From contig JAUXOG010000089.1 of assembly GCA_030682385.1 (NCBI GenBank), forward strand, positions 1 to 60,601: a DNA stretch of 60,601 bases, in the 5' to 3' direction. Every line of letters begins with the position of its first letter. Position 1 is the stretch's first letter. Positions 43 through 14,560 of the stretch are shown here, piece by piece. Origin of the DNA: Bacteroidota bacterium (lineage in GTDB: Bacteria; Bacteroidota; Ignavibacteria; UBA10030; BY39). A program made the translations under genes and the position numbers. The notes beneath the pieces are model-generated. The model ran no database searches, had not been told where the DNA came from, and was given only the letters and a program-made list of their open reading frames with translations.

Positions 43-126
43 ATCCGCCTACGTTACACTTCGGCGGATTCTCAAAATTTCTTATAAGTTAGCTGCACAT
101 TGTTTGCTAACTTATGAAATTTTGGA
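43..126 (+). repeat. Paired-hairpin element copy A, at the 3' end of tRNA-Leu
   Basis: An 84-bp element. Hairpin 1 is ATCCGCC/GGCGGAT (43-49 with 66-72 approx.). It is followed by the core TTCTCAAAAT and a long hairpin 2 with arms TTTCTTATAAGTTAGC and GCTAACTTATGAAA, ending in ATTTTGGA. It abuts the 3' end of tRNA-Leu with two bases between. It is nearly identical to copy D at 7273-7356, which has the same length in the opposite orientation; differences are confined to the two loops. Confidence 0.8.
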
Positions 127-128
127 AG

Positions 129-2980: not shown

Positions 2981-3204
2981 TGCTTCGATTTTAACTTTGC
3001 TAAGTAATGAAGACGCTCGCAATAGAAGATAAATGGGGCTTATAAGAATTTCTTATCAAGAATAGAAACTAAACATGGAGAATCACCAATCAAAAAATAT
3101 CTCTGCTTGGCATAGATATTTTTGTTAAACCAAATGATGTTAAGGTGTTGGTAAAATATTCTGAGTTAGGATATATCAGTTGTATGAAAAAATGTGAAAA
3201 TTAG

Positions 3205-3278
<74 letters not shown>

Positions 3279-3355
3279 ATTATTTTACATATCATATTTA
3301 TTTAAAGAACGATTGACCCGACAAGCTCATCTTCATTTTTTCTTTGCTACAGCTT

Positions 3356-3422
3356 ATCCCGCCAAGAGCGGGATTCTCAAAATTGCAACCACTCGTAAAA
3401 AACACTCGTGGGCAATTTTCGA
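3356..3422 (+). repeat. Paired-hairpin element copy B, in the tRNA-Arg anticodon loop
   Basis: Hairpin 1 is a perfect ATCCCGC-CAAGA-GCGGGAT (3356-3374). The core TTCTCAAAAT follows. Hairpin 2 is short: CAAAATTGC pairs with GCAATTTT, with an inner repeat ACTCGT...ACTCGT. The flanks CAGCTT and AGAAGGCTG are the two sides of the tRNA-Arg anticodon loop on the other strand. Confidence 0.75.
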
Positions 3423-3449
3423 AGAAGGCTGATGCTCTATCCGATTGAG

Positions 3450-3532
3450 TCCCGCCTGCGGCGGGATTCTCAAAATGACTTATAACTTAACTTCTCCCGC
3501 TTTGCGGGATCGTTAAGTTATGTCATTTTGGA
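3450..3532 (+). repeat. Paired-hairpin element copy C, in the tRNA-Arg D-arm
   Basis: Hairpin 1 is TCCCGCC-TGC-GGCGGGA (3450-3466), followed by the core TTCTCAAAAT. Hairpin 2 has arms TGACTTATAACTTAAC and GTTAAGTTATGTCA and holds a nested palindrome TCCCGC-TTT-GCGGGA (3495-3509) at its tip. It ends ATTTTGGA. It splits the tRNA-Arg copy between GTAGC and CTCAATCGG. Confidence 0.8.
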
Positions 3533-3544
3533 GCTACGGGCCCA

Positions 3545-3600
3545 TATTAATTATCAATGGACAATTGTTAATTGCTAATTGTTGATTGTTGATTGATCAT
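3545..3600. repeat. AATTG-rich tract 5' of the broken tRNA-Arg
   Basis: A run of short interleaved words (TCAATGGACAATTG, TTAATTGCTAATTG, TTGATTGTTGATTGATCATTG) starts a few bases beyond the 5' end of the interrupted tRNA-Arg copy. Similar tracts lie at 7202-7258 and 7699-7734, each ending three bases before a tRNA-Arg 5' end. The rest of the 2981-3789 gap outside the tRNA material (2981-3204 and 3600-3789) shows no gene that I can support. Confidence 0.6.
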
Positions 3601-7201: not shown

Positions 7202-7260
7202 CAATTGTTAATAGCTAATTTACAATTATCAATTGGCAATTGACCATTAGCAATTAGAAT
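7202..7260. repeat. AATTG-rich tract, left copy by the tRNA-Arg(TCG) duplication
   Basis: Alternating words such as CAATTGTTAATAG, CAATTATCAATTGG and CAATTGACCATTAG. The last ten bases plus the next twelve (7251-7272) are repeated exactly at 7728-7749, where they join the real tRNA-Arg. Confidence 0.6.
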
Positions 7261-7272
7261 GCGCCTGTAGCT

Positions 7273-7356
7273 TCCAAAATTTCATAAGTTAGCAAATGTA
7301 ATGCAGCTAACTTATAAGAAATTTTGAGAATCCGCCGAAGTGAAACAAAGGCGGAT
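7273..7356 (-). repeat. Paired-hairpin element copy D, in the tRNA-Arg(TCG) D-arm
   Basis: An 84-bp element, the near-identical reverse complement of copy A (43-126): TCCAAAATTTC, hairpin 2, GAGAATCCGCC, loop, GGCGGAT. It begins right after GTAGCT of a tRNA-Arg 5' fragment. This is the homologous position, within a base or two, to that used by copy C in the other tRNA-Arg. Confidence 0.8.
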
Positions 7357-7396
7357 CAATAAAATAAAACACACGCGCCTGTAGCTCAATTGGATA

Positions 7397-7444
7397 CCCG
7401 CCCGACCGAACGTTAGAGAGCTCATTATCGGTCGTTCGGGCGGG
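7397..7444. repeat. Palindrome inside a tRNA-Arg fragment
   Basis: CCCGCCCGA (7397-7405) pairs with TCGGGCGGG (7436-7444), and ACCGA with TCGGT inside it. It separates GGATA from GAGCATC of the tRNA-Arg sequence, on the 3' side of the D-loop. Confidence 0.7.
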
Positions 7445-7461
7445 GAGCATCAGTTTGATAT

Positions 7462-7734
7462 ATGAAACACTATGTTTATATATTGAAGAGTTGTAGAGAT
7501 AGTAAAAGATATATCGGTATGACAACTGATCTTGAAAGAAGATTAGGAGAACACAATGCAAAAAAGACTAAATCTACAAAAGGACGCGGTCCTTTTGTAT
7601 TAGAATATTTTGAAGAGTTCGATACACGACTTGCAGCAAGAGAAAGAGAAAAGTATTTTAAAACCGCTGCCGGTAGAAGGTTAATAACTGAAAAGTTAAT
7701 AATTAACTATCAGCAATTAGCCATTGACAATTAG
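7462..7734 (+). CDS. Small GIY-YIG nuclease-like protein (UPF0213 type)
   Basis: 90 residues. It has YVYIL (the GIY strand) at 4-8, YIGMT at 17-21, the conserved arginines of DLERRLGEHN at 24-32, and AAREREKYFKTAAGRR at 58-73, which carries the catalytic-type glutamate. It is one domain with no separate DNA-binding module. Such proteins are common in this phylum, often near RNA genes; their function is largely unknown. The gene lies inside a 477-bp segment bounded by 22-bp direct repeats carrying the tRNA-Arg 5' end. Its last residues (QQLAIDN) and stop codon are supplied by the right-hand AATTG tract, so the 3' end of the gene was formed by, or fused to, the repeat. Confidence 0.8.
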   Translation: MKHYVYILKSCRDSKRYIGMTTDLERRLGEHNAKKTKSTKGRGPFVLEYFEEFDTRLAAREREKYFKTAAGRRLITEKLIINYQQLAIDN

Positions 7735-7737
7735 AAT

Positions 7738-7811
7738 GCGCCTGTAGCTCAATTGGATAGAGCATCTGCCTTCGGAGCAGAGGGTTAGGGGTTCAAGTCC
7801 CTTCAGGCGTA
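7738..7811 (+). tRNA. tRNA-Arg (anticodon TCG)
   Basis: Complete cloverleaf: acceptor GCGCCTG/CAGGCGT with G1-U72, discriminator A. Anticodon stem TCTGC/GCAGA encloses loop CTTCGGA, giving anticodon TCG. CCA is not encoded. This is the intact copy downstream of the broken ones. An AATTG tract (7699-7734) ends three bases before it. Confidence 0.95.
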
Positions 7812-7872
7812 CAAATTTATACGCCGCTACTCTCTTTGCTTTTTTCTCAAATCATATTAATCTTGAAATCAA

Positions 7873-14236: not shown

Positions 14237-14382
14237 GCTTTTCAAATCCCGCTTCTCCGCCTTCGACGGATACAGCGGGATCCGCAATTCGACTGATAAC
14301 ATATCTGCACTACGTTTGATAAATTATGTCGAATTGGGACTTGGAACATCCCGACAAAGTCGGGAAATCCCGTTGGGGGCAC
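14237..14382 (+). pseudogene. Broken tRNA-Glu copy 2, anticodon loop split by element E
   Basis: GCTTTTCAA (14237-14245) is the tRNA-Glu anticodon arm up to base 38. Element E (14246-14339) is inserted there, and the gene resumes with CTTGGAACA. In the T-arm the bases CGGGTTCG are replaced by a palindrome TCCCGAC-AAA-GTCGGGA (14349-14365), after which AATCCCGTTGGGGGCAC ends the tRNA. Most of the 5' half has been lost. Confidence 0.8.
14246..14339 (+). repeat. Paired-hairpin element copy E, in the tRNA-Glu anticodon loop
   Basis: Hairpin 1: ATCCCGC...GCGGGAT (14246-14282), with a smaller TCCG...CGGA inside the loop. The core is CCGCAATT. Hairpin 2 has CAATTCGAC pairing with GTCGAATTG, and the end is GGGA. 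It is a variant subfamily of copies A-D: the positions are the same but the arms differ. Confidence 0.75.
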
Positions 14383-14560
14383 TCCGAAAAATATCAAATT
14401 ACAAATCCGCCGGCGGCGGACAAATTTCAAATCAATAACAAAAGCCACGATAGTTTGTCGGGGCTTTTGTCCTTTTAAGTGATGAGGTGTGCTATTCAAA
14501 TACCGCTTCTCCGCCTTCGACAGATACAACGGGATCCGCAATTCGACTGATAACACTTCT
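14383..14560 (+). repeat. Tandem copy of the tRNA-Glu flank with partial element F
   Basis: This repeats 14128-14300 at a period of 254 bp: the flank with palindrome (14401-14426), terminator copy (14439-14474), GCTATTCAA of the tRNA anticodon arm (14491-14499), and the first half of an element like E (14500-14555). It stops before hairpin 2 closes. Together with the surrounding RNA genes this fills the 13776-14625 gap; no protein gene is evident. Confidence 0.75.

Follow-up and report, generated by a model that had tools for sequence, protein, structure and literature searches.

The tRNA-Arg(tcg) locus of the window (i.e., the whole analysed stretch of 60,601 nt, positions 1-60,601 of the forward strand of contig JAUXOG010000089.1, assembly GCA_030682385.1, Bacteroidota bacterium) carries a compact unit that probably belongs to a numerous group of tiny mobile cassettes, free-standing GIY-YIG homing genes specialised by tRNA isotype. 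The homing reading draws on the adjacency of these genes to tRNAs, a rule for the placement of tRNA 5' and 3' pieces, a gene tree that follows isotype, the distribution of hairpin families, empty sites, conserved catalytic residues and tandem cassettes. Target-specific homing that leaves an intact tRNA is the best explanation because the active site is intact and because precedents exist in phage SegB (PMC13096335) and in fungal mitochondrial mORFs (PMC3630166). The unit is organised as follows:

7219..7260, + strand: upstream flank of tRNA-Arg(tcg), copy 1, A+T-rich (54-nt repeat)
7261..7272, + strand: broken tRNA-Arg copy 1, first 12 nt (identical to 7738-7749)
7273..7356, + strand: paired-hairpin element D (hairpins at ~7275-7326 and 7330-7356)
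7375..7396, + strand: broken tRNA-Arg copy 2, nt 1-22 (exact match to 7738-7759)
7397..7444, + strand: imperfect 48-nt palindrome between tRNA positions 22 and 23 (D-loop end)
7445..7451, + strand: broken tRNA-Arg copy 2 continued, GAGCATC, nt 23-29 (from the sequence)
7462..7734, + strand: GIY-YIG nuclease gene, 90 aa (ORF, PF01541)
7696..7737, + strand: tRNA upstream flank, copy 2, overlapping the 3' end of the GIY-YIG gene (54-nt repeat)
7738..7812, + strand: intact tRNA-Arg(tcg) (ARAGORN; Rfam, 68.9 bits)

The sequence-only reading had described a GIY-YIG gene bounded by 22-bp direct repeats that include the tRNA-Arg 5' end, and this anatomy holds: CAATTAGAATGCGCCTGTAGCT is present in exact copies at 7251-7272 and 7728-7749, each containing the first 12 nt of tRNA-Arg(tcg), the stop codon of the gene (7732-7734) lies inside the right-hand repeat, and element D, a second tRNA-Arg fragment, a palindrome and the gene lie between the repeats where they had been placed. 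The second fragment is indeed present but longer than had been noted, since the palindrome lies inside it (GGATA, palindrome, GAGCATC, i.e., the t22/t23 junction) and it extends to t29. CAATTAGAATGCGCCTGTAGCT is itself the 3' part of a longer 54-nt repeat (7219-7272 and 7696-7749, 81% identity) made up of upstream flank and tRNA-Arg 5' end. Because the flanks are A+T-rich, their 81% similarity alone is weak evidence; a chance repeat is ruled out by tRNA pieces of 12 and 22 nt that match exactly and lie in the proper order, together with the recurrence of this layout at dozens of tRNA loci. The end of flank copy 1, ACAATTAGAAC, is also found at the GIY-less tRNA of a same-genus genome (G001). 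A spacer separates element D from broken copy 2, and the palindrome consists of inverted arms (7397-7420 and 7421-7444) that are 79% complementary; two other Arg loci (L016 and L067) have the same t22/t23 junction and a similar CCCGCCC...GGCGGG palindrome. The ORF list contains no gene between the repeats besides GIY-YIG, so the unit does not have the makeup of a tRNA-targeting integrative element (integrase and duplicated tRNA 3' end).

Copies of element D, ~83-91% identical, are present at window 43-128 (-) and at G000:C43, and a 73% relative lies inside a broken tRNA-Arg(tct) at window 3456-3582 (-). The copy at 43-128 (-), at 91%, is located directly behind the 3' end of tRNA-Leu(cag). A second near-identical unit, with D elements, palindrome and a protein 89% identical, can be identified at G000:C43. 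The window also holds a remnant that lacks the gene:

3300..3545, - strand: related GIY-less remnant, a 5' copy of tRNA-Arg(tct) interrupted by two paired-hairpin elements

This remnant lies just upstream of the intact tRNA at 3204-3278 and shows exact tRNA repeats of 27 and 15 nt. One of its hairpin elements follows t12, where CT is duplicated, and the other interrupts the anticodon loop. The window has another tRNA 3' remnant (14366-14400), in which the final bases of tRNA-Glu(ttc) and the adjoining flank are repeated over 35 nt, at 94% identity, 254 nt beyond the gene on its downstream side.

The 90-aa protein belongs to the GIY-YIG family, matching PF01541 at 65.4 bits against a cut-off of 22.6, and the predicted fold and active site can be read clearly from its sequence: the catalytic residues are intact, and Y6, Y17, G19, R27, H31 and E63 are conserved in 96-97 of 97 tRNA-linked relatives. 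The gene is free-standing, i.e., a separate ORF with its own start and stop outside any intron or intein, and only tRNAs reached thresholds in an Rfam search of the window, which returned no intron. Several known types of element were considered and set aside: a group I intron endonuclease (no Rfam intron in the window, TIGR01453 far under its cut-off), an intron or intein location (no intron match at the tRNA-Arg(tcg) locus), a RAYT/REP element with its HUH tyrosine transposase (the sole encoded protein is GIY-YIG) and a phage or plasmid cassette (close relatives not found there, best matches <60% identity). As for a relationship to SegB, the homing-endonuclease matches in PHROGs are weak only. 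Solved relatives include the structure-specific SLX1, and the UPF0213/YhbQ-like single-domain GIY-YIG proteins (PDB 1zg2, 1ywl) have the same domain and the same size; no described genomic context or target for the latter was found in open-licence full texts.

A search for relatives shows that they adjoin tRNA genes, tRNA fragments and hairpin elements. The genome of the window itself contains 14 matches to the gene, and 7 of these have a different intact tRNA gene on their own strand no more than 150 bp away. Across 60 relatives, with 104 GIY-YIG genes having at least 400 bp of flank on both sides, a same-strand tRNA is present within 250 bp in 81/104 cases and an opposite-strand tRNA in 0/104, while 126 kb of control flank, 0.8-1.5 kb from the genes, held a single tRNA. 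Eight of the remaining 23 are second genes of tandem cassettes, whose units are repeats of partial tRNA plus gene. Relatives far from tRNAs, which would have counted against the link, occur only as separate clades at other insertion sites. The arrangement follows a simple rule: a gene with the intact tRNA downstream is preceded by pieces of the tRNA 5' part, and one with the intact tRNA upstream is followed by pieces of the 3' part. The proposed mobile unit of nuclease and tRNA segment is thus supported by its relatives, but its tRNA part is a 5' end only when the intact tRNA is downstream and a 3' end otherwise. The other tRNA half is also present beyond the intact tRNA in 17/92 loci (wrong half in 3, shuffles 1), so that a cassette always lying between both halves is rejected. 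The layout extends to relatives of the wider class, named Bacteroidota, Deltaproteobacteria, Omnitrophota and several CPR lineages, the named-organism sample being small and biased to Asp-like relatives by its query, a single Asp-type protein. An assembly artefact of metagenome bins is ruled out by Draconibacterium orientale (L197), an isolate with a complete chromosome that shows this layout.

The phylogeny of the GIY domain (74 columns, without tRNA-derived sequence, 95 loci)—although many forks in this tree of a short protein are unresolved—requires only 15 changes of tRNA isotype as opposed to 51-64 after shuffling, i.e., lineages keep to a single target. This falls to 14 when L132 is relabelled Val(tac), its neighbour having been taken for a tRNA-Gly and being in fact a tRNA-Val(tac) that holds an assembly gap. 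Host family, in contrast, changes 50 times (49-61 shuffled), and related genes of the same isotype occur across host families and phyla. Within isotypes the host signal is weak (50 against a mean of 55, p ~0.007), which indicates that descent is partly vertical and is counted against the homing reading. The sequence-only reading had stated that this protein type has no established target; the tRNA gene of a particular isotype is now a strong candidate. Genes of the family away from tRNAs form their own clades at other sites, which is likewise counted against this reading.

Presence and absence at an orthologous target can be compared between G000 and G001 for tRNA-Pro(cgg), Ser(gct) and Leu(caa). 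In G001, tRNA-Pro(cgg) is a single gene, while in G000 the locus, with matching sequence on both outer sides, comprises an intact tRNA, a broken copy, the gene and a second broken 3' end, i.e., the tRNA, ~0.5 kb and a duplicated tRNA 3' end. The Ser(gct) and Leu(caa) loci are gene-free in G001, Ser(gga) conversely lacks a GIY gene in G000 but has two of them in G001, and the tRNA-Arg(tcg) locus of the window is cassette-free in G001, G002 and G004. From these empty sites and the phylogeny we infer that the cassettes are mobile. A tRNA-Ser(gga) segment is inverted relative to its flanks between G001:C31 (L071) and G000:C52 (L210).

The hairpin elements do accompany tRNA fragments, as first proposed, but are inserted within them, often in loops. 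Inserts in partial tRNA copies are self-complementary (median z -3.7 against shuffles), and 38/50 clean junctions fall in D-, anticodon-, variable or T-loops, where ~26 are expected; T-loops account for 15/50 (6.5 expected), 12 of these 15 exactly at GTTC^GA. The enrichment of loops as a whole (38/50) is only moderate, which is also counted against the homing reading. Inserts at Ser and Pro loci consist of two small hairpins with a constant length of 30 or 22 nt and covarying stems, which are 97.5-98.6% paired with one G-U among ~190 paired cells. Because G-U pairs are almost absent despite changes on both sides, these stems look as if they were maintained at the level of DNA inverted repeats and not of RNA stems. 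Hairpin families follow isotype across host families (6-mer overlap 0.165 vs 0.057, 0/500 permutations), and the isotype tree, this overlap and the separate clades of non-tRNA genes together indicate that gene clade, tRNA isotype and hairpin family go together. Double-hairpin elements (DHE) of organelle genomes are likewise short, mobile-looking double hairpins of conserved structure; to our knowledge, no tight association of DHE with one nuclease family and tRNA isotype has been reported.

These inserts give rise to an alternative, in which GIY-YIG is the nuclease of an element that works like RAYT/REP but with another enzyme. The moving part would then be the paired hairpins, with a preference for the structured DNA of tRNA genes, and the copies of tRNA would arise as by-products. 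Stems kept like perfect DNA inverted repeats through two-sided changes, hairpin families that track GIY clade and isotype, the enrichment of loops as sites, the existence of GIY-less broken tRNAs with the same hairpins and the kinship to SLX1 all agree with it. Nonetheless we consider it unlikely, as it leaves unexplained both the constant position of the gene on the tRNA strand between partial and intact tRNA and the tRNA-isotype phylogeny, and no hairpin was found as a defined cassette end. Lower still is the probability of an RNA-level system, in which the protein would cleave a specific tRNA and the broken, hairpin-bearing tRNA would act as a neutralising decoy RNA, as in type III toxin-antitoxin: strict isotype pairing, the same-strand layout and a structured tRNA-like RNA beside the gene would fit, but the broken part may be 5' or 3' and before or after the gene, the nearest families are DNA nucleases, and clades at protein genes behave as insertions. 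Least probable of all is an absence of mobility, with tRNA duplication by slippage or recombination carrying along an unrelated small gene that is then inherited vertically, which would suit recombination-prone tRNA loci, tandem arrays and some vertical signal but is strongly disfavoured by near-universal tRNA adjacency, a gene tree ordered by isotype and not by host, presence and absence between two genomes of one genus and a conserved active site.

Under target-specific homing, the nuclease would cut cassette-free copies of its tRNA gene, and repair from the cassette-bearing locus would install the gene together with part of a tRNA, splitting the resident tRNA but leaving a functional, intact tRNA to one side. 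The gene probably shares a transcript with this tRNA. More speculatively, the hairpins could destroy the cut site of the displaced copy, its homology, or both, and protection of the intact copy from its own nuclease could come from an altered tRNA half. Taken in full, i.e., bacterial selfish elements that home to tRNA genes in an isotype-specific manner, split the gene, leave an intact and sometimes recoded tRNA and mark the displaced copy with hairpins of conserved structure, this picture is tentative and somewhat doubtful.

Two known systems come closest. Phage SegB is a free-standing GIY-YIG nuclease that cuts within tRNA genes (PMC13096335), and the reverse complement of its motif RAWTSGAAC, GTTCSAWTY, corresponds to the tRNA T-loop, the very site where hairpins split broken tRNA copies here. 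As in the present cassettes, SegB of T-even phages and other free-standing GIY-YIG homing endonucleases adjoin tRNA genes, and SegB is linked to tandem amplification of tRNA and nuclease, recalling the tandem cassettes. SegB differs in being phage-borne, in a tRNA association without isotype preference, surveyed in viruses only, and in that broken tRNA copies or hairpin inserts are not described in the relevant passages (PMC13096335). The fungal mitochondrial mORF gene-hybrid elements (Allomyces atp6; Glomus atp6, atp9, cox2 and nad3), one of which encodes a GIY-YIG enzyme, resemble the cassettes in that an endonuclease ORF with a replacement gene end rebuilds the host gene and displaces the native end downstream; in contrast, mORFs affect the 3' ends only of mitochondrial protein genes, while the cassettes affect either half of bacterial chromosomal tRNA genes (PMC3630166). 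No description of a bacterial chromosomal version was found in open-licence full texts; the components have precedents, and their combination appears to be new. Conditional on biochemical proof, the tRNA-linked cassettes would be classed with free-standing homing endonuclease genes.

How the intact tRNA escapes its own nuclease bears directly on the homing reading. The intact tRNA-Arg(tcg) of the window is identical to the tRNA of the GIY-less G001, so recoding cannot protect it; an intact tRNA beside the gene should be cuttable, which is counted against homing. For free-standing GIY-YIG enzymes, donor alleles are cut poorly, as stated in PMC13096335. At cassette-bearing loci, 11/11 mismatches between sister tRNAs lie in the cassette-side half (8 pairs), while ~26 other sister pairs have 7 mismatches, Ser(tga) with its 20 differences being set apart from this comparison. 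Beside the cassette, the T-arm is altered in Pro and Ala tRNAs, the Ala locus retaining the native CCTCAT in its displaced 3' end, while cassette-bearing Arg, Ser(gct) and Asn tRNAs are unchanged, and T-arms vary in GIY-less relatives too. A new tRNA half conferring immunity to the cassette's own nuclease is thus suggestive only. Nested tRNA-Ser(tga) genes are present at two loci without a GIY gene: at G000:C42 (L239) the 5' and 3' parts of a different tRNA, Y, flank an intact tRNA X, and at G001:C40 (L255) it is Y that is intact, flanked by parts of X that themselves lie within degenerate Y parts, X and Y differing at 20/83 positions. This nesting would fit a history in which a complete tRNA was inserted more than once into the resident tRNA at its anticodon region, and such serial replacement suggests a possible arms race driving tRNA sequence evolution.

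Although tRNA genes are essential and strongly conserved, in many lineages a nuclease gene is lodged in them, in what looks like a selfish gene living in essential genes without host death by a route not described before. If true, this would provide a target and a role for a widespread single-domain GIY-YIG family lacking both, offer an explanation for tandem tRNA/nuclease arrays and for many of the broken copies of tRNAs, and make testable both how a homing gene persists in an essential RNA gene, with specificity that tracks isotype, and whether such elements rewrite tRNA sequences.

Further arrangements can be observed at non-tRNA sites. In one GIY-YIG clade (L029, L031, L032, L039, L070 and L096, also L004 and L010) an inverted repeat, CCCGTGAGATA / TATCTCACGGG, forms the boundaries, and one of its arms encodes the protein C-terminus KNYLTG; in L032 and L004 the unit appears to split a tyrosine recombinase gene. 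In L008, L009 and L013 the GIY-YIG domain lies in frame in apparent Eco57I-type methylase genes, recognised by eye, inserted after LHGNSxKKE and with apparent inverted repeat flanks. Finally, the GIY-YIG gene of L156 adjoins an Rfam group I intron (RF00028, 91.8 bits).
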